Part shown: positions 2,305 to 20,137 of the stretch, one piece after another
Numbering within the stretch: the first letter of the stretch is position 1
How the letters are laid out: each line of letters begins with the position of its first letter
Assembly (NCBI GenBank): GCA_023249405.1
Contig: JAHFCR010000026.1
Coordinates: 1-37,909, forward strand
DNA: 37,909 nucleotides
Direction of reading: 5' to 3'
Source of the DNA: Peptococcaceae bacterium
GTDB taxonomy: Bacteria; Bacillota; DSM-12270; Thermacetogeniales; Thermacetogeniaceae
The notes under the pieces: generated by a model
What the model was told of the DNA's origin: nothing
Databases searched by the model: none
What the model saw: the letters and a program-made list of their open reading frames with translations, nothing else
Program-made: the position numbers and the translations under genes

Positions 2305-4734
2305 TTATGAAGCGTTCTTTTCTATCGAACTGACGAGATCGGCAATATCCATAATCATGCCAACCTCACCATCCCCCATGATCGCGCAGCCCGAAATGCC
2401 CCGTACCCGTTTCAGATAAGCAGGCAGCCCTTTGATCACGATCTGTTGCTGGCCGATAAGTTCATCTACAAAAAGGCAGCATTTATTGTCATTGCTGTCC
2501 ACGTAAATGAGTATTCCTTTAGTCAAGTCTTTGTGCTTTGGATCTATGTGGTAGAGTTCATGTAGCCTGGCGACGGGCAACAGTTCTCCCCGGATACGTA
2601 CAATTTCCAGATTGTCAGGCGTACAGGTGATCTGGTCTGACTTAGGTCGAAATGATTCCTTGATGGAACTGATCGGGATTATGTAACGGTTGTGGCCTAC
2701 CCTGATCACCATTCCTTCAATTATGGCAAGAGTGAGTGGAATCCGAATAGCGAACATGGTCCCAATGCCGGGTTTACTGCGGATATCCAGTTTGCCTCGC
2801 AGCTTTTCTATATTCCGCCTTACCACGTCCATACCTACGCCACGCCCCGAAATGTTGGAGACCTGTTCTGCTGTTGAGAAACCGGGTTCAAAGATCAGGC
2901 GCCAAACGTCTTCATCCTTCATATCCCGGTCTTCTTCTCTAACCAGCCCTTTTTCCACTCCCTTTCGGAAAATCTTTTCACGGTTCAGTCCGCCGCCGTC
3001 ATCCTCGACCGTAATCCATACCTCTCCTGCCGAGTGCTTGGCTTCAATGGTAACCTTGCCGGTTTCCGATTTGCCTGCGAGCTTGCGCTCGGTGACGCTT
3101 TCAATCCCGTGATCAACAGCATTTCTGATCAGATGTACTAAGGGATCAGAGATCTGTTCGATAATTGTTTTGTCCACTTCCGTGTCTTCACCGATGATCT
3201 CTAGTTCTACCTGTTTATTCGCCTTGTTGGCAAGATCCCGGACCAGGCGCAGCATTCTGCGGAATACTCCGGCCAGAGGGATCATGCGCATAGACATGGC
3301 CACTTCCTGGATTTCTCTGGATATCTTGTCCAACTGTAGAAATGCCTTGCTAAAACGGGCATTCTGCGAAACATCGACAGCCTGATCGTTAGTTACCATC
3401 GCCTCGGCGATCACCAATTCACCGACTAGATCCAGCAGTTTATCCAGTTTCTCGATATCCACTCTGATTACTTGCTGCACATTACTCGACGCCGGTTGCT
3501 TTTGTAGTGTAGCCGAATCAACGATCCCCGGATCCTCTATCCTGGCATCAGGCAACACTTTATCTTCTGCAGATATTACAGCCTGAGCTTCAGTCGCTGC
3601 AACCGGTTTATGTTCTTGTCTTTCTGGCAAAAAGTTGGAGTCGTCATAATTTTGGCCAGCTAGGTCCTGTTCCTGGGAGGAAGCAGTTTCTACATAACCG
3701 GACTCTAGCTCTTGAGTAATTTTCTCCAAACTGCCTATCAATTGCTGAAAATTGGGGATTGCTTGATTAACTCCACCTGTTGTGCTGAGGACTTTATTGC
3801 TGATGGCATCCAGAACGCTCAATAAAACGGACATTGTTGCATGATCACAGGCCTGGTTCCGTTCTCGAATAATGCCCAGGACGTTTTCAGCCAGGTGGCT
3901 CAGGTTTTCAATGTCACCGTATCCGAAGAAGCCGGCATTTCCCTTGATACTGTGAAACGATCTAAAAACCTGGGAGGAGAGTTCAGCGTCAGCAGTTTTT
4001 TCCAGGCTTAGCAGGGCCATTTCCGCTTCTTCACAGAGTTCCTGGGTTTCTTCGGCAAAGCGCCTAGCCATCTCCGGCGTTACGGACAGGACCATTTCTG
4101 TCAGATCAAGAGGTTCCGCAAACCCGTCCGGTTCAGGCTGTGCAACTGTGGCCGTAACCCGGGCAACCATACTCTCGATCCGTTTGTATTCCTCTTCCTG
4201 TTCAGGATCTGGCTCCTGTGTTGAGTTGTCGGTATCAGGGCTTAAAATCCCAGGGCGTTCCACATCCAGTTCGGTTGCCGGATTGATGGCGTTTCTGAGA
4301 TCATTGATGATAAACTCTGCTTCAGCTTCAAAACCCTCATCAGTGAGTTGGCGCTCAACAGCATCCAGGATGTTTCTGATCAGATCGCTGGTGCGGCACA
4401 GTAGATCGATATGTTCCGGTTTTATGAACGCCTTATTTTTACGCAGGATGTCCAGCAGTGTTTCTGCCTCGTGAGTGACACTGATAATTGTCTGTAGATC
4501 TAAAAAGGCGGCCGTTCCCTTAAGAGAGTGAAAAAGACGGAAGACCTCGTTTAAAATCTCCTCGTCCACCACCCCGGAGGCGGTTGCGGTCCTTTCCATG
4601 TCTATAATCCGAGGCTCAACGCTCTCTAGCAGCTCGCGGCTCTCGGTTACAAAGTCCTTGACCATTTCCAGCCTTTCTTCAAGGTCGCTGTCCAATTGTT
4701 TTGTTTCCCTCCGTGAACGAAACTTTGTTTTCAC
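2305..4734 (-). CDS. cheA: Chemotaxis histidine kinase CheA with two HPt domains
   Basis: CheA autophosphorylates in response to receptors and passes phosphate to CheY. Order (809-residue numbering): HPt 1 with FHSLKGTA (His69), HPt 2 with FHSIKGNAGF (His261), a long linker, a dimerisation helix (about 422-485, KLDKLLDLVGELVIAEA), an ATPase domain (N box HLIRNAVDHGIE near 534, DDGGG near 578, GRGVGMDVV near 630) and a C-terminal CheW-like domain. No standard P2 CheY-docking domain is apparent between HPt 2 and the dimerisation helix. The start is uncertain: the GTG at 4734 has no ribosome site, whereas an in-frame TTG at 4695 follows GGAGG by 12 bases and would give 796 residues. A sigma-28 promoter lies 77 bases upstream of the GTG. 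Confidence 0.95.
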   Translation of the reverse strand: MKTKFRSRRETKQLDSDLEERLEMVKDFVTESRELLESVEPRIIDMERTATASGVVDEEILNEVFRLFHSLKGTAAFLDLQTIISVTHEAETLLDILRKNKAFIKPEHIDLLCRTSDLIRNILDAVERQLTDEGFEAEAEFIINDLRNAINPATELDVERPGILSPDTDNSTQEPDPEQEEEYKRIESMVARVTATVAQPEPDGFAEPLDLTEMVLSVTPEMARRFAEETQELCEEAEMALLSLEKTADAELSSQVFRSFHSIKGNAGFFGYGDIENLSHLAENVLGIIRERNQACDHATMSVLLSVLDAISNKVLSTTGGVNQAIPNFQQLIGSLEKITQELESGYVETASSQEQDLAGQNYDDSNFLPERQEHKPVAATEAQAVISAEDKVLPDARIEDPGIVDSATLQKQPASSNVQQVIRVDIEKLDKLLDLVGELVIAEAMVTNDQAVDVSQNARFSKAFLQLDKISREIQEVAMSMRMIPLAGVFRRMLRLVRDLANKANKQVELEIIGEDTEVDKTIIEQISDPLVHLIRNAVDHGIESVTERKLAGKSETGKVTIEAKHSAGEVWITVEDDGGGLNREKIFRKGVEKGLVREEDRDMKDEDVWRLIFEPGFSTAEQVSNISGRGVGMDVVRRNIEKLRGKLDIRSKPGIGTMFAIRIPLTLAIIEGMVIRVGHNRYIIPISSIKESFRPKSDQITCTPDNLEIVRIRGELLPVARLHELYHIDPKHKDLTKGILIYVDSNDNKCCLFVDELIGQQQIVIKGLPAYLKRVRGISGCAIMGDGEVGMIMDIADLVSSIEKNAS

Positions 4735-13427: not shown

Positions 13428-13465
13428 TTTGATTTTCAAAGACGGTACCGGGAAGAGGGTTGGTC

Positions 13466-13774
13466 ATGTCTGTCAAGGGCACCGATCTACAGACTCTGAT
13501 CTGGAGGGCCCCGGAGGCGGGAAAGGTCCAGCAGGCCCAGAAGGCGGGAGAGTCTGCCCAGCAGCAAGACTTTGCCTTGTCATTGACAAAGCAGGCTGAA
13601 CTGGCCGGCAATACCGTCCAAAATCTTCCTAAAACCGAGCAAGGGAAAATAAACAGTGATGAATCCAAGAAAGAGCAGCATGAATTCAGTAAACAGGATG
13701 ATGAGAAAAAGGACGAAGAAAGTCCGGACGAGATGATAATAACGTCGGGCCACATCATCGATTACAGGATCTAG
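13466..13774 (+). CDS. Small charged protein of unknown function in the rod operon
   Basis: I do not recognise this family. The protein of about 102 residues has a Gln/Ala-rich first half (KVQQAQKAGESAQQQDFAL), then a strongly charged Lys/Glu/Asp segment (about 64-90), and ends with the hydrophobic GHIIDYRI. It has no signal peptide or membrane helix and is probably largely disordered. It sits between the rod-binding gene and flgB on the same strand, with GGAAGAGGG before the ATG at 13466 (TTG at 13460 is possible). The location suggests a role in rod export or assembly, but nothing in the sequence proves this. It is too short to be FliK. Confidence 0.7.
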   Translation: MSVKGTDLQTLIWRAPEAGKVQQAQKAGESAQQQDFALSLTKQAELAGNTVQNLPKTEQGKINSDESKKEQHEFSKQDDEKKDEESPDEMIITSGHIIDYRI

Positions 13775-14976: not shown

Positions 14977-15981
14977 GTGGTAGAGGTTCTATCTCAATCC
15001 GAAATAGACATGCTGATCAGGGCTATACAGTCCGGTGAAGCAACTGAAGAAACGCTGCAGGAACAACCAAAGCAGAGGATCAGGCCGTATGATTTCCGTA
15101 ACCCTGATAAGTTCTCCAAAGAACAGATCAATACTTTTCAGGTTATTTACGACAACTATGCGAGATCGGTCAGCACTTTTTTATCTGTCAACCTGAGATC
15201 GAATTTTCATGTGGCGCTTTTATCTATTGAACAGGTAAGTTATGGGGAATTTATTCGTTCACTTTTGGATCCGTCTATTAGCATCCTGTTTAATATGGAT
15301 CCGATGGAAGGAACCGCTATCTTGGAGATTTCCCCCGAAGTCATGTTTGCCCTGCTGGAAAGGCTGATGGGGGGAAGGGGGCAAAAGACGACCTATCTGT
15401 TCCGGTCGCTGACGGAGATCGAGCGCACCCTGATCGAGAATTTATGCCAGGAGATACTCGATCTCTCATCCACAGCCTGGAGCAACATCATCAACTTTAA
15501 CCCTAAAATTGAACATATCGAAACTAATCCCCAGTTTGTGCAGGTAGTTGATCCTACCGAAACCGTCTTGCTCGTGTCGCTGGAAATAAAAATTGATCAT
15601 GTAAGCGGGTCGCTGCAGTTCATTTTTCCCTATATTGTACTCGAGCCGATTTTGGATAAATTCAGCACCAAGTACTGGTTTGCAAAAACTTCTAAAGTTC
15701 CTGATAGCGATTACCGTAATAATATCAGGATGCAAATAAATTCAGTCCGGATACCTGTCTGTGTTATTCTCGGTGATGCTACGGTCACGGTTCGCGAACT
15801 GATGGAACTCCAAAGTGGAGATGTCGTGATGCTGAATAGGAGAAAAAACCAGCAACTGGACGTCTGGATTGGTGGTTCTAAAAAATATCTGGCCTATCCC
15901 GGTCTCCATGAGCATCAACTGGCTGTAAAAATTACAAGTCTCCCAGAAGAAACAGAGAATGACAATGATCTTGATGGCTAG
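14977..15981 (+). CDS. fliM: Flagellar motor switch protein FliM
   Basis: FliM is the C-ring subunit that binds CheY-P and changes rotation. The 334 residues have the N-terminal CheY-binding peptide LSQSEIDMLIRAI (5-17), the CheC-like middle domain (YDFRNPDKFSKEQINTF, LMGGRG, LTEIERTLIENL) and a C-terminal SpoA domain (about 250-325, IPVCVILGDATVTVRELMEL). The start is GTG at 14977 behind GGGGTGGGTGG. Its usual partner fliY lies about 9 kb upstream, so the common fliM-fliY pair has been split. Confidence 0.96.
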   Translation: MVEVLSQSEIDMLIRAIQSGEATEETLQEQPKQRIRPYDFRNPDKFSKEQINTFQVIYDNYARSVSTFLSVNLRSNFHVALLSIEQVSYGEFIRSLLDPSISILFNMDPMEGTAILEISPEVMFALLERLMGGRGQKTTYLFRSLTEIERTLIENLCQEILDLSSTAWSNIINFNPKIEHIETNPQFVQVVDPTETVLLVSLEIKIDHVSGSLQFIFPYIVLEPILDKFSTKYWFAKTSKVPDSDYRNNIRMQINSVRIPVCVILGDATVTVRELMELQSGDVVMLNRRKNQQLDVWIGGSKKYLAYPGLHEHQLAVKITSLPEETENDNDLDG

Positions 15982-16039
15982 AGCGCAACTGAGAGCCAGC
16001 TTTATTACATGGGAAGGACCAGCTTTAAAAGCTAACAGG

Positions 16040-16066
16040 ATGAGAGTCAGCACTTATTCAATATGA
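16040..16066 (+). other. Possible leader micro-ORF overlapping the peptidase start
   Basis: ATG at 16040 opens eight codons (MRVSTYSI) and stops with TGA that overlaps the peptidase ATG in an ATGA junction. The peptidase start itself has no clear ribosome site close by, so coupling through this short frame is possible. The evidence is only positional. Confidence 0.3.
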
Positions 16067-17370
16067 GAGCATCCAGAAGAGTCAACACGGGTGTTGGCTT
16101 GCCAGTCAACCGCAGAAAGCATAACTCTACCCACACTCTTCTGTTGATTTTACTTGTTATTTTAGTAGCCCTGGAGATCGTGCGGGATCTATCGTACCCG
16201 CAGTTTTCATTGGAATTACCGGCATCGCCTATAAATTCCATAGTGGGCCGGATCGATGCTCAGCAGCAATTAATTGACATGTCCGTGTCCGTGATCAACA
16301 GCGATGGGAAATACCTGTCAGATCCTGCAAAAGACAGCTGGACCGACAGCGATACCAGTTTCAAACTGGATGCAGTAAACATTGCCGCTACGAAAAGTCG
16401 CTATCTATACAGATGGCAGATACCCTTGGGTTTTATACTACCAACTGGTGTTTATAGGCTGGTGGTGACCGTGCGGCAATGGCCAAATTTGGTGTTCAAG
16501 AAAGTCCTGCCTTTGAATATCTCGGAAGAAGCAGATGCCAATATGCTGTTGAACTGCGTTAAATATCTGGCATCTTCGAAGTTGCAGGGACGCGCACCTG
16601 GACAGAATGGAGGCAATATGGCGGCGCAGTATATAGCCAATCAGTTTCAAGCCTATGGCCTGCAGCCTGGAGGTATGGACGGCTGGTACCAGCCTGTTAA
16701 GTGTTATCTCTTCAGGCTTATTTACTTGAATCTCCGATGGGTGCCCGTGTTGGAACGAAATAGCCCGATACCGTCGGAGAACGTGATTGGAATAGTGCCG
16801 GGCAGAAGCAAGCAGGCGATTATCGTCTCGGCTCACTATGATCATTTGGGCGTCTATGGCGGCGCTACTTATTACGGCGCCAACGACAACGCATCGGGAG
16901 TATCAGTGTTAATGGAAGCGGCGCGTATCCTGGCAAAAGAACCCTCTCCTCAATATACACTGATTTTTGCCGCCTGGACTGGTGAGGAGCAAGGTTTTCT
17001 CGGTTCCGGCTGGTTTGCCGGCCAGTATCGCGGTAAAGTACTGGCGGTGCTCAATCTCGATTCTGTTGGGAATAATGCCGGCCAGTTAGTAGCTCACAGT
17101 GACAATGAAAGGCTCAATGAGGGCATCAAGGACGCTGCTATCCGTTCCGGAGTGAAGCTGATCGATAATCCGGAGCAATTGATGCCTGGCGATGCGGTAT
17201 CGTTTTCCAAAAGAGGCACCCCGGCAGTGGATATCTACTCACCCTTCTGGCTTAGAAACAACCATACCACCAGGGATGACATAGCGAATGTTGATGCTGC
17301 GAGTCTTAAAAAAGCGGCCCAATTCTTGCTTGATCTGGTGGGGTCATTGGAAGGGCATCAGTATAATTGA
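16063..17370 (+). CDS. Membrane-anchored M28-family metallopeptidase inside the flagellar operon
   Basis: This is a predicted di-zinc exopeptidase of peptidase family M28 (aminopeptidase-like). It has a basic N-terminus, one membrane helix (about 24-40, LLLILLVILVALEIV), a beta-rich Ig-like region (about 50-155) and the M28 domain (about 160-430), which should lie outside the membrane. All expected metal and catalytic residues are present: H258 in SAHYDHLG, D275 in GANDNASG, E308-E309 in WTGEEQGFLGS, D333 in LNLDSVG and H401 in NNHTTRDD. It lies between fliM and fliL on the same strand, with gaps of 81 and 26 bases, so it should be co-transcribed. Its substrate is unknown. Such a gene is not a standard flagellar component; a wall-peptide or protein-trimming role is only inference. 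Confidence 0.9.
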   Translation: MRASRRVNTGVGLPVNRRKHNSTHTLLLILLVILVALEIVRDLSYPQFSLELPASPINSIVGRIDAQQQLIDMSVSVINSDGKYLSDPAKDSWTDSDTSFKLDAVNIAATKSRYLYRWQIPLGFILPTGVYRLVVTVRQWPNLVFKKVLPLNISEEADANMLLNCVKYLASSKLQGRAPGQNGGNMAAQYIANQFQAYGLQPGGMDGWYQPVKCYLFRLIYLNLRWVPVLERNSPIPSENVIGIVPGRSKQAIIVSAHYDHLGVYGGATYYGANDNASGVSVLMEAARILAKEPSPQYTLIFAAWTGEEQGFLGSGWFAGQYRGKVLAVLNLDSVGNNAGQLVAHSDNERLNEGIKDAAIRSGVKLIDNPEQLMPGDAVSFSKRGTPAVDIYSPFWLRNNHTTRDDIANVDAASLKKAAQFLLDLVGSLEGHQYN

Positions 17371-17396: not shown

Positions 17397-17855
17397 ATGG
17401 CTGGGGGAGAAACTGTTGCCGTTTCCAAAAATGCTGGCTCCAAGAACAATGGGAAAGCGATTTTCATAGCCGTAGGGCTGGTGGCGGTTTTATTTATCGT
17501 TATCATGGGCTTTTTTCTCGTCACTAAAACATCTGGCGCCACTAAGCCGGTACCAGAAAAAGCTATCTTGCACGATATGGGCGAATTTACCACTAACCTT
17601 TCAGACATCAGCCAACTGAAGTATATCAAGGTAAAAGTGGTTCTGAAACTGGATAACGCTAAGCTGGAAAATGAGATCAAGGATCAGGAGCCGATCCTGC
17701 AGGATAGCCTGATCGGCTTATTGAACAGCAAGACCAGCACAGATATCATGGATGATCGCTCCAAGCTAAAATCGGAGGCCATAACTCTACTTAACAGACA
17801 TCTGACTGCAGGCAAGGTCATTGATATCTATTTTTCTGATCTGGTCATGCAGTAG
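17397..17855 (+). CDS. fliL: Flagellar basal body-associated protein FliL
   Basis: FliL is a single-pass membrane protein that surrounds and supports the stator. The 152 residues have one helix (about 22-43, IFIAVGLVAVLFIVIMGFFL) and a periplasmic domain with GEFTTNLSD, YIKVKVVLKLDN and a C-terminal LTAGKVIDIYFSDLVMQ typical of the family. The ATG follows AAAGGAG. It comes directly before motA-motB, consistent with its stator role. Confidence 0.94.
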   Translation: MAGGETVAVSKNAGSKNNGKAIFIAVGLVAVLFIVIMGFFLVTKTSGATKPVPEKAILHDMGEFTTNLSDISQLKYIKVKVVLKLDNAKLENEIKDQEPILQDSLIGLLNSKTSTDIMDDRSKLKSEAITLLNRHLTAGKVIDIYFSDLVMQ

Positions 17856-17909: not shown

Positions 17910-18701
17910 ATGGATCTATCTACTCTGCTGGGACTGATCATCGGGTTTGCCTGCGTTATATCGGCATTCCTGATCGAGGGAGGCAAGATCGGAGCCCTAT
18001 TCTCCCTCTCCGCTTTATTGATTGTACTGGGCGGCACCGCCGGGGCTACCACCATTTCTTTCGGGCTGGATAATTTAAAAAACATTCCCGCCCTGATTGC
18101 TATTGCATTTAAAAACCAAAAATACGATTTGAATGAACTGATCCGGCAATTTGTAGCCTTTGCCGATCAGGCTAGGCGTGAGGGCATTTTAAGCCTGGAA
18201 AACAGCCTGGAGCATGTCGACAATACTCTTTTGAAGACTGGGCTACAATTGATCATCGACGGTATTGAAACGCCGGTTTTTCGTGATCTCTTGGAAAATC
18301 AGGTTGCTTATATGGAAGCGAGACATGAGCGGGGCATCGCCATGTTTGAAGCGGCCGGGGGCTATTCACCGACCATGGGGATTATTGGAACCGTCATGGG
18401 TCTGGTGCATGTGCTTGCCAGTATGAGTTCGCCGGAGACGCTGGCACCGGCGATCGCGGTTGCTTTCATTGCCACGCTCTACGGCATCGGACTGGCCAAC
18501 CTCCTGTGGCTGCCGATCGCCGCCAAGCTGAAAGCTAAAAGCAGCGAGGAAATACTCTACCACAGCCTCACTGTGGAGGGACTGCTGTCGATCCAGGAAA
18601 AAGAGAACCCTAACTTCATTAGGGAAAAACTGGTTGCTTTCCTGAGTCCGCAAAGTATGCGTAATCTTAAGGGGCCAATGAAGGATGAAGCCGAAGCGTA
18701 G
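17910..18701 (+). CDS. motA: Flagellar stator protein MotA
   Basis: MotA is the ion-channel and torque subunit of the stator. The 263 residues contain four membrane helices (about 4-22, 28-48, 150-172 and 183-205), the cytoplasmic loop with VAYMEARHERGIAMFEAAGG and the family motif GYSPTMGIIGTVMGLVHVL. Whether the ion is H+ (MotA) or Na+ (MotP) cannot be decided here. The end overlaps motB by 17 bases, so the pair is tightly coupled. Confidence 0.93.
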   Translation: MDLSTLLGLIIGFACVISAFLIEGGKIGALFSLSALLIVLGGTAGATTISFGLDNLKNIPALIAIAFKNQKYDLNELIRQFVAFADQARREGILSLENSLEHVDNTLLKTGLQLIIDGIETPVFRDLLENQVAYMEARHERGIAMFEAAGGYSPTMGIIGTVMGLVHVLASMSSPETLAPAIAVAFIATLYGIGLANLLWLPIAAKLKAKSSEEILYHSLTVEGLLSIQEKENPNFIREKLVAFLSPQSMRNLKGPMKDEAEA

Positions 18702-19407
18702 GGCTAAAGCAAATAATTCGGAGCGCTGGTTGCTCACGTATTCTGACTTGGTCACCCTCCTCATGATCTTTTTTATCATGATGTACGTGATCAGCAACGT
18801 CAACACTCAGAAGTTTCAAGCGCTGGCGAGGGTTCTGGGTTCGGCGTTCGGCAGTTCCAATATTCTCAACAGCGGGGATGCCATTCTTCCAGAAACAGTT
18901 AGCAATAGTGGCCCCGTTAGCAGCGATGCCTCGCAACTGGCGCTATTAAAAAAACAGATCGAAGAACAAGTAGCCGCGGCGGGTTTCGGTGGGAAAGTGA
19001 CGGTCAGCCTGGAAGAGCGCGGCCTGGTGGTCAGTATTCAGGACACCATACTCTTCATTAGCGGTTCAGCCTCTCTGACGCCTGAAGCCGGTTCCATCAT
19101 CACGAAAATCGGCATAACGCTCAAGCCGCTGCCAAATTTCGTCCGTATTGAGGGCCACACCGACAATGTACCTATTCACAACCAGCAATTTCCGTCCAAT
19201 TGGGAACTGTCGGTGGCGAGAGCGACCGATGTGGTGCAGGAGTTGATTACGCAATGCGGAATATCTCCCAGTCGCCTGTCGGCTACCGGTTACGGAGAAT
19301 ATCGCCCGCTTGCTGCCAATGACACGGATGAGCACCGGCAAATAAACAGGAGAGTGGATATCCTGATCCTGAGCGGCACCTTCAACCCGGTAGAACCACA
19401 GATATAG
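18685..19407 (+). CDS. motB: Flagellar stator protein MotB
   Basis: MotB anchors the stator to peptidoglycan and completes the ion channel. The 240 residues have the N-terminal basic segment, the membrane helix carrying the essential Asp21 (LLTYSDLVTLLMIFFIMMY), a linker and plug region, and a C-terminal OmpA-like peptidoglycan-binding domain with RIEGHTDNVPIHNQQFPSNW and ELSVARATDVVQEL. The ATG at 18685 is inside the end of motA; AAGGGG ten bases upstream is the likely ribosome site. Confidence 0.95.
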   Translation: MKPKRRAKANNSERWLLTYSDLVTLLMIFFIMMYVISNVNTQKFQALARVLGSAFGSSNILNSGDAILPETVSNSGPVSSDASQLALLKKQIEEQVAAAGFGGKVTVSLEERGLVVSIQDTILFISGSASLTPEAGSIITKIGITLKPLPNFVRIEGHTDNVPIHNQQFPSNWELSVARATDVVQELITQCGISPSRLSATGYGEYRPLAANDTDEHRQINRRVDILILSGTFNPVEPQI

Positions 19408-19516
19408 ATTGAACTGATGTTTGGAGCCGATCGCCAGCAGGCGGAAAAGAATCTAACAAATTATAAGCGAAGTTGCGTATATCGACGGCCAGATCCGTGT
19501 ATCGGGAGTGATTAGC

Positions 19517-20137
19517 TTGACACCAATTGACTTGACCCGGATTTCTGACTATGCGCAGTCGCCGGTCATAAGAGACCGGCATGACGGACCGGCGACTTTC
19601 GGAATAACGCTTGCCAATCGCTTCAGGACAATGCTGGACCGGGCGTTTCAAGATGCGGGCAGTAAGTATGGCCTCGATCCGGCGCTATTAAAAGCAATTG
19701 CCGATGCCGAATCGAGTTTTAACCCCAATGCCTTGTCCGCGCAGGGCGCCATCGGGTTAATGCAGATCATGCCTGATACCGCCAGTTCCCTGGGCGTGGA
19801 TCCTCATGACCCCGGCCAGAGTATTCTCGGCGCTGCCAAATACCTGCGGGCGCTGATAGATGGCTTTCAAGGGAACCTGCAGTTGGCGATCGCTGCTTAC
19901 AATGCAGGTCCGGGCGCAGTCAAAAAATATGGTGGGATTCCTCCCTATAAGGAAACGCAGGATTATGTGGATCGGGTTACCAGCCTCATTAGAAAGTATC
20001 AGAATCCGGCCCAGAACCAGAGTTCCGGTGGCGGGAATGCCTCCACCAGCGTTCCTCAGGATGCCGGCACGATGGCAGAGATCTTCTCGATCTGGACGCA
20101 ATTGCAATTATATGACGCCTTATCAAATTTGAAATGA
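19517..20137 (+). CDS. Lytic transglycosylase of the SLT family, motor-operon encoded
   Basis: This is a peptidoglycan-cleaving lytic transglycosylase. The SLT domain occupies about 45-165 and shows the catalytic Glu in IADAESSFNPNA (about residue 65), then GAIGLMQIMPDTA and LAIAAYNAGPGAVKKYGG. No signal peptide is visible; the leader resembles proteins exported by the flagellar gate or other leaderless routes. TTG at 19517 is favoured because GGGAG lies eight bases before it; GTG at 19508 is the alternative. It lies between motB and fliH after a 109-base gap with no clear promoter. Together with the hydrolase-less FlgJ it could open the wall for the rod. Confidence 0.9.
   Translation: MTPIDLTRISDYAQSPVIRDRHDGPATFGITLANRFRTMLDRAFQDAGSKYGLDPALLKAIADAESSFNPNALSAQGAIGLMQIMPDTASSLGVDPHDPGQSILGAAKYLRALIDGFQGNLQLAIAAYNAGPGAVKKYGGIPPYKETQDYVDRVTSLIRKYQNPAQNQSSGGGNASTSVPQDAGTMAEIFSIWTQLQLYDALSNLK

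Follow-up and report, generated by a model that had tools for sequence, protein, structure and literature searches.

A flagellar operon in the window, the whole 37,909-nucleotide stretch of Peptococcaceae DNA that was analyzed, contains a gene for what is most likely a binuclear-zinc M28 exopeptidase, predicted to be an aminopeptidase. The gene (16063..17370) has the switch gene fliM on one side and fliL and the stator genes on the other; the window features given below as start..end coordinates are on the plus strand. The explanation that we prefer, and hold tentatively, is that the product is an envelope exopeptidase made with the motor, anchored in the membrane, and acting on its outer face. 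A preliminary description of this DNA had read the gene as an active peptidase working close to the motor, and our analysis supports that interpretation in part.

Domain organization of the M28 protein

The gene begins with ATG and encodes a putative membrane-anchored protein of 435 amino acids. Residues 240–425 (16780..17337) match Pfam PF04389 (Peptidase_M28) over nearly the whole profile with E = 2.3e-38 and a score of 132 bits (cut-off, 21.3). The metal ligands H258, D275, E309, D333, and H401 and the catalytic E308 are all located in this domain, and they are unchanged throughout a 22-sequence alignment. The claim that the enzyme looks active, which named these six residues, is therefore borne out. 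The catalytic domain was modeled with a pLDDT mostly >90, and the best folds returned by Foldseek are the Vibrio and Streptomyces aminopeptidases (1AMP/1QQ9-type, E ~1e-18). The features used to recognize a member of family M28, namely the profile match, the five binuclear-site ligands with the catalytic Glu, and an aminopeptidase-type fold, are all present. The top NCBIfam match is NF007568 (PRK10199), named ‘aminopeptidase’ (E = 3e-9), but the score of 36.6 bits does not reach the curated equivalog cut-off of 298. The aminopeptidases of Vibrio proteolyticus and Streptomyces griseus (1AMP, 1CP7) have the fold and the binuclear metal set in common with the window M28; however, they are secreted, soluble enzymes without a membrane anchor, an Ig-like domain, or a flagellar link.

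It is very improbable that the protein is a glutaminyl cyclase with the M28 fold or a receptor-like protein that has no enzymatic activity. Glutaminyl cyclases are also among the Foldseek matches, and M28-fold proteins without peptidase activity exist, nicalin being an example. Glutaminyl cyclases are single-zinc enzymes, however, whereas the window protein has all five binuclear-site ligands and the catalytic Glu, and these are invariant. Both the glutaminyl cyclase and the pseudoenzyme readings were rejected on these active-site residues.

The amino terminal part of the protein consists of a predicted membrane segment followed by a predicted beta domain. The single membrane segment spans about residues 22–44 (16126..16194; hydropathy >1.6) and is a helix at residues 22–43 in the model, in agreement with the membrane anchor of the preliminary description. 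The N terminus preceding the helix is short and positively charged, and by the positive-inside rule for membrane topology the catalytic part is reasonably expected to lie outside the cell. Residues 45–156, approximately (16195..16530), are assigned to an Ig-like beta-sandwich domain. The query residues 15–134 align at 29% identity (E = 1.8e-6) with a domain of Ig-like type in a surface protein rich in FN3 repeats. The N-terminal domain was folded alone because residues 45–153 are unreliable in the full-length model. The resulting AF2 model, built from the single sequence, is all-beta, and most of its strands have a pLDDT of 75–84. The PDB folds that match it best are for the most part Ig-like sandwiches, none of them at E ≤ 0.001. 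The domain has no Pfam family match, and a PDB sequence search with it returned nothing convincing. The Ig-like region proposed earlier is thus upheld with moderate confidence from the sequence match, the model, and the fold search. This domain is absent from all 21 M28 relatives in the alignment.

The start codon of the gene is uncertain, since the ATG has no good Shine-Dalgarno sequence in front of it and overlaps (ATGA) the stop codon of an 8-codon mini-ORF at 16040..16066. The same two features suggest that translation of the M28 may be weak or coupled.

The flagellar operon and the origin of its M28 gene

The operon reads fliE, fliM, M28, fliL, motA, motB, SLT transglycosylase, fliH, and fliI, where fliE, fliH, and fliI are presumed identities taken from sequence and position. 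The upstream neighbor fliM (14977..15981; PF02154, 5e-62) is separated from the M28 gene by 81 nt (15982..16062) of ordinary folding energy (z −0.53). The downstream neighbor fliL (17397..17855; PF03748, 3.8e-17) follows after 26 nt that include an AAAGGAG ribosome site. Profile searches identified the stator genes motA (17910..18701) and motB (18685..19407), the latter with an OmpA-type wall-binding domain, and an SLT lytic transglycosylase (19508..20137), which is the operon's next wall-acting gene. The M28 gene ends 539 nt before the start of motA with fliL alone in between, and it counts as adjacent to motAB. The gene is therefore in line between fliM and fliL as first described. No promoter-like or terminator-like site was detected in the 81-nt and 26-nt gaps flanking the gene, so that a separate promoter, which the preliminary description had listed among the results that would count against it, is not apparent at the sequence level. 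The common strand, the short gaps, and the lack of an intervening promoter or terminator are the properties of an operon member, and we infer that the M28 is co-transcribed with the flagellar genes. An ORF of 104 aa at 13460–13774, between a flgJ-like gene and flgB, has no convincing Pfam match.

The draft genome to which the window belongs, as contig C30, comprises 3.57 Mb in 168 contigs, and G+C in the window rises from ~43% to ~60% between positions 4000 and 37000. A draft with such a composition could contain a contig that fuses unrelated pieces, but we regard an assembly artefact as very unlikely. The ORFs are intact, the gaps are short, and the genes are on one strand. The change in composition is gradual and shows no step at the M28 gene, and the closest relatives of FliM, MotA, and the M28 all belong to the same family.

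This family (f1) includes Thermacetogenium phaeum, a bacterium in which flagella have been seen by electron microscopy and the L- and P-ring genes are lacking. FliM is present in 13 of the 20 genomes of the class, including the window genome. The genes at the relatives’ loci were named by BLAST against the window proteins or by reading the sequences. The preliminary description had set absence of the M28 gene from this position in close relatives as the result that would count against it, and none of the 12 relatives’ fliM loci in the family (L038–L049) has an M28 adjoining fliM. A slot shared among flagellated relatives, the mark of a conserved flagellar gene, was thus not found for the window M28. 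Both same-genus genomes examined are incomplete (84% and 71%) and have no FliM. The fliM-M28-fliL slot is, so far, found in one genome only. Flagellated relatives without this M28 subtype exist both in the family (G007, G012, G013, and G016) and in another class (G442, G463, and G465). These data show that the M28 is dispensable and not essential for flagella.

The relatives also differ from the window in gene order. The fliL gene directly precedes fliM in 11 of the 12 loci (fliL was not found in L049). Orthologues of the window motAB occur in five relatives at 58–63% identity, and in the three relatives read they are at a separate locus. The window operon has therefore been rearranged and brought together into one cluster; across the flagellar cluster (8809–28857) the order is strongly unlike that of the relatives, with fliM ahead of fliL and motAB within the cluster. 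The window FliM falls within the family in the tree with moderate support on a long branch, and MotA is nearest to its own family. These placements disfavor horizontal transfer of the whole flagellar cluster, and vertical descent with rearrangement is the preferred account of its origin.

The closest sequences to the window M28 are in seven genomes of the family, at 41–45% identity. These proteins are mostly 320–340 aa long and have no Ig-like domain, and their genes are outside the flagellar cluster. Where the context was read, the gene is upstream of mraZ, mraW, ftsL, and PBP genes; the exception is G004 (L086), where the flank on one side of the M28 is shared and is followed by other genes. 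A second M28 gene of the window genome (G000:C76:1032-2006, equal to L067:1032-2006, minus strand) encodes 324 aa with no Ig-like domain, and its neighbors are rpe, rsgA, a PASTA kinase gene, and a PBP gene. The window copy, the C76 copy, and the family M28s form one group in the M28 tree (support 100/97), and the window copy is long-branched. A scan of the genome_contigs collection with the window protein returned only distant M28s of unrelated phyla. The genome retains a second M28, and the window gene therefore resembles an additional, diverged copy in a rearranged operon. The grouping of both copies within the family and the long window branch are compatible with a duplicate that is old or evolves fast.

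The same observations can be read as a chance event, in which a copy of an ordinary extracellular aminopeptidase gene came to lie between fliM and fliL during the rearrangement and remained there harmlessly, with a role in peptide turnover or general envelope proteolysis that is unrelated to the motor. We consider this explanation nearly as likely as the preferred one. The unique slot, the unusual placement of fliL and motAB, the second M28 at C76, and the long branches of both FliM and the window M28 are all consistent with it. On the other hand, the active site is wholly retained, and the GC3 of the gene (0.54) is like that of its operon neighbors (0.50–0.59) and not that of the C76 copy (0.67), so the gene does not resemble a fresh insertion. 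The same subtype has also come to adjoin motAB independently in f4/f94 and G052, as described below.

M28 genes beside stator and wall-growth genes

A survey of the phylum with reading of gene context led to another class containing the families f4, f94, f50, and f107. Among the 59 f4 and f94 genomes with a flagellar-type motA, 48 have an M28 gene just past motB, 0.83–1.3 kb behind motA. These neighboring M28 and motB genes of the other class lend separate support to the stator link suggested in the preliminary description. The M28 gene is convergent in 47 of the 48 cases, and it is thus not co-transcribed with motAB. A twin-arginine (Tat-type) leader, for example TRRTFLK, is present in all six of the motAB-linked f4/f94 proteins read. 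These proteins, such as that of Syntrophobotulus glycolicus, are of the same subtype as the window M28 and are likewise encoded next to stator genes; however, they have a Tat leader in place of the anchor and Ig-like domain, their genes are convergent, and they form a separate branch of the tree. The f1 M28s are the group to which the window copy belongs, and a lineage shared with the f4/f94 copies was not found. In S. glycolicus (G373) the M28 is next to motAB, though fliM is 2 Mb away. Genes of cheR type are found beyond the f4/f94 M28, mostly with an intervening DUF327 gene. The arrangement motA-motB-(convergent Tat-type M28)-(DUF327)-cheR is conserved in L068, L074, L075, L076, L080, and L081 and is apparently undescribed.

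A third placement beside the stator genes is found in G052 (f34), where a divergent M28 gene adjoins motA; the same locus in two relatives has the M28 without motAB. The subtype is also found near dcw genes (f1, f50, and f76) or near a prpC-ftsW-pbpA-prkC cluster (f34). Tat-type M28 genes beside hydrogenase-maturation-like genes were observed in G022 (L073:7147-8196) and, as a second copy, in G170 (L088:6764-7861), and in G022 the gene is also beside apparent [NiFe] hydrogenase genes.

The presence of M28 tracks the presence of flagellar-type motA in the f4 and f94 genomes that are ≥90% complete (p = 0.0017), and physical linkage alone can yield co-loss of the two genes. Co-occurrence of M28 with FliM is not significant in f4 and f94 (p = 0.08), and in f1 (8/0/5/7, p = 0.010) it is suggestive and was not taken as proof. 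A Poisson model of chance linkage gives an expectation of 0.011 over nine lineages and a probability of ~2e-7 for three, a rough, post hoc estimate that ignores repeated relocation. Most of the 48 f4/f94 linkages may trace back to one ancestral event, and these counts are not independent. A wider hypothesis is that the exported M28 subtype is a recurrent stator accessory in monoderm Bacillota that was recruited to motAB at least three times, where it would condition the membrane-wall interface or stator-associated proteins for stator anchoring or exchange. We regard this hypothesis as doubtful, with a modest chance of being correct.

Possible work of the peptidase at the cell envelope

That genes of this M28 subtype repeatedly adjoin stator or wall-growth genes speaks for a function in the envelope. 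In the preferred explanation, the window M28 would come from this envelope-associated subtype of the phylum, as a diverged extra copy that entered the rearranged flagellar operon. One N-terminal membrane helix would anchor the enzyme, and the Ig-like domain, as a spacer or a binding domain, would hold it on the outer face. Transcription between fliM and fliL-motA-motB would cause the M28 to be made during motor building, and its probable site of work would be the surface of the membrane or of the wall near the motor. We infer the topology, activity, substrate, and place of action around the motor from these data. Possible substrates would be the N termini of exported envelope proteins, or else peptides released as the neighboring SLT transglycosylase and similar enzymes open the wall.

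The proposal that the enzyme trims wall peptides around the motor fared less well. A free L-amino terminus, the end that an exopeptidase needs, is missing from intact stem peptides, and direct cutting of the intact wall peptides is therefore unlikely. Trimming of exported proteins or of peptides released from the wall is more plausible. The Escherichia coli enzyme Iap (alkaline phosphatase isozyme conversion aminopeptidase) trims the N terminus of an exported protein. Iap and Pseudomonas AaaA are, likewise, exported envelope M28 aminopeptidases. Both have been placed in M28C (PMC3426542). The window M28 differs from them in its anchoring and in falling short of the NF007568 cut-off, and Iap and AaaA have no known motor linkage.

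Nutrient scavenging, in which an enzyme expressed together with flagella would release amino acids from external peptides and so combine foraging with digestion, is an unlikely role. M28 aminopeptidases are commonly extracellular digestive enzymes, as the solved relatives illustrate, but the window enzyme is predicted to be anchored by a single pass and no peptide transporter gene is seen alongside. The subtype is placed by stator and wall genes, not uptake genes.

To our knowledge, no peptidase is recognized as part of the stator or switch module. Searches of open-licence text returned nothing relevant and no paper on this linkage. As a passenger, the window gene would still be a clear example of the capture of an unrelated enzyme by a motor operon. 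The motAB linkage in f4 and f94 is a hint of a motor-related envelope function that has yet to be described, and this arrangement is testable because cultured species carry it. A recurrent motAB-tied peptidase, if true, would provide a new handle on stator-wall contact in monoderm bacteria.
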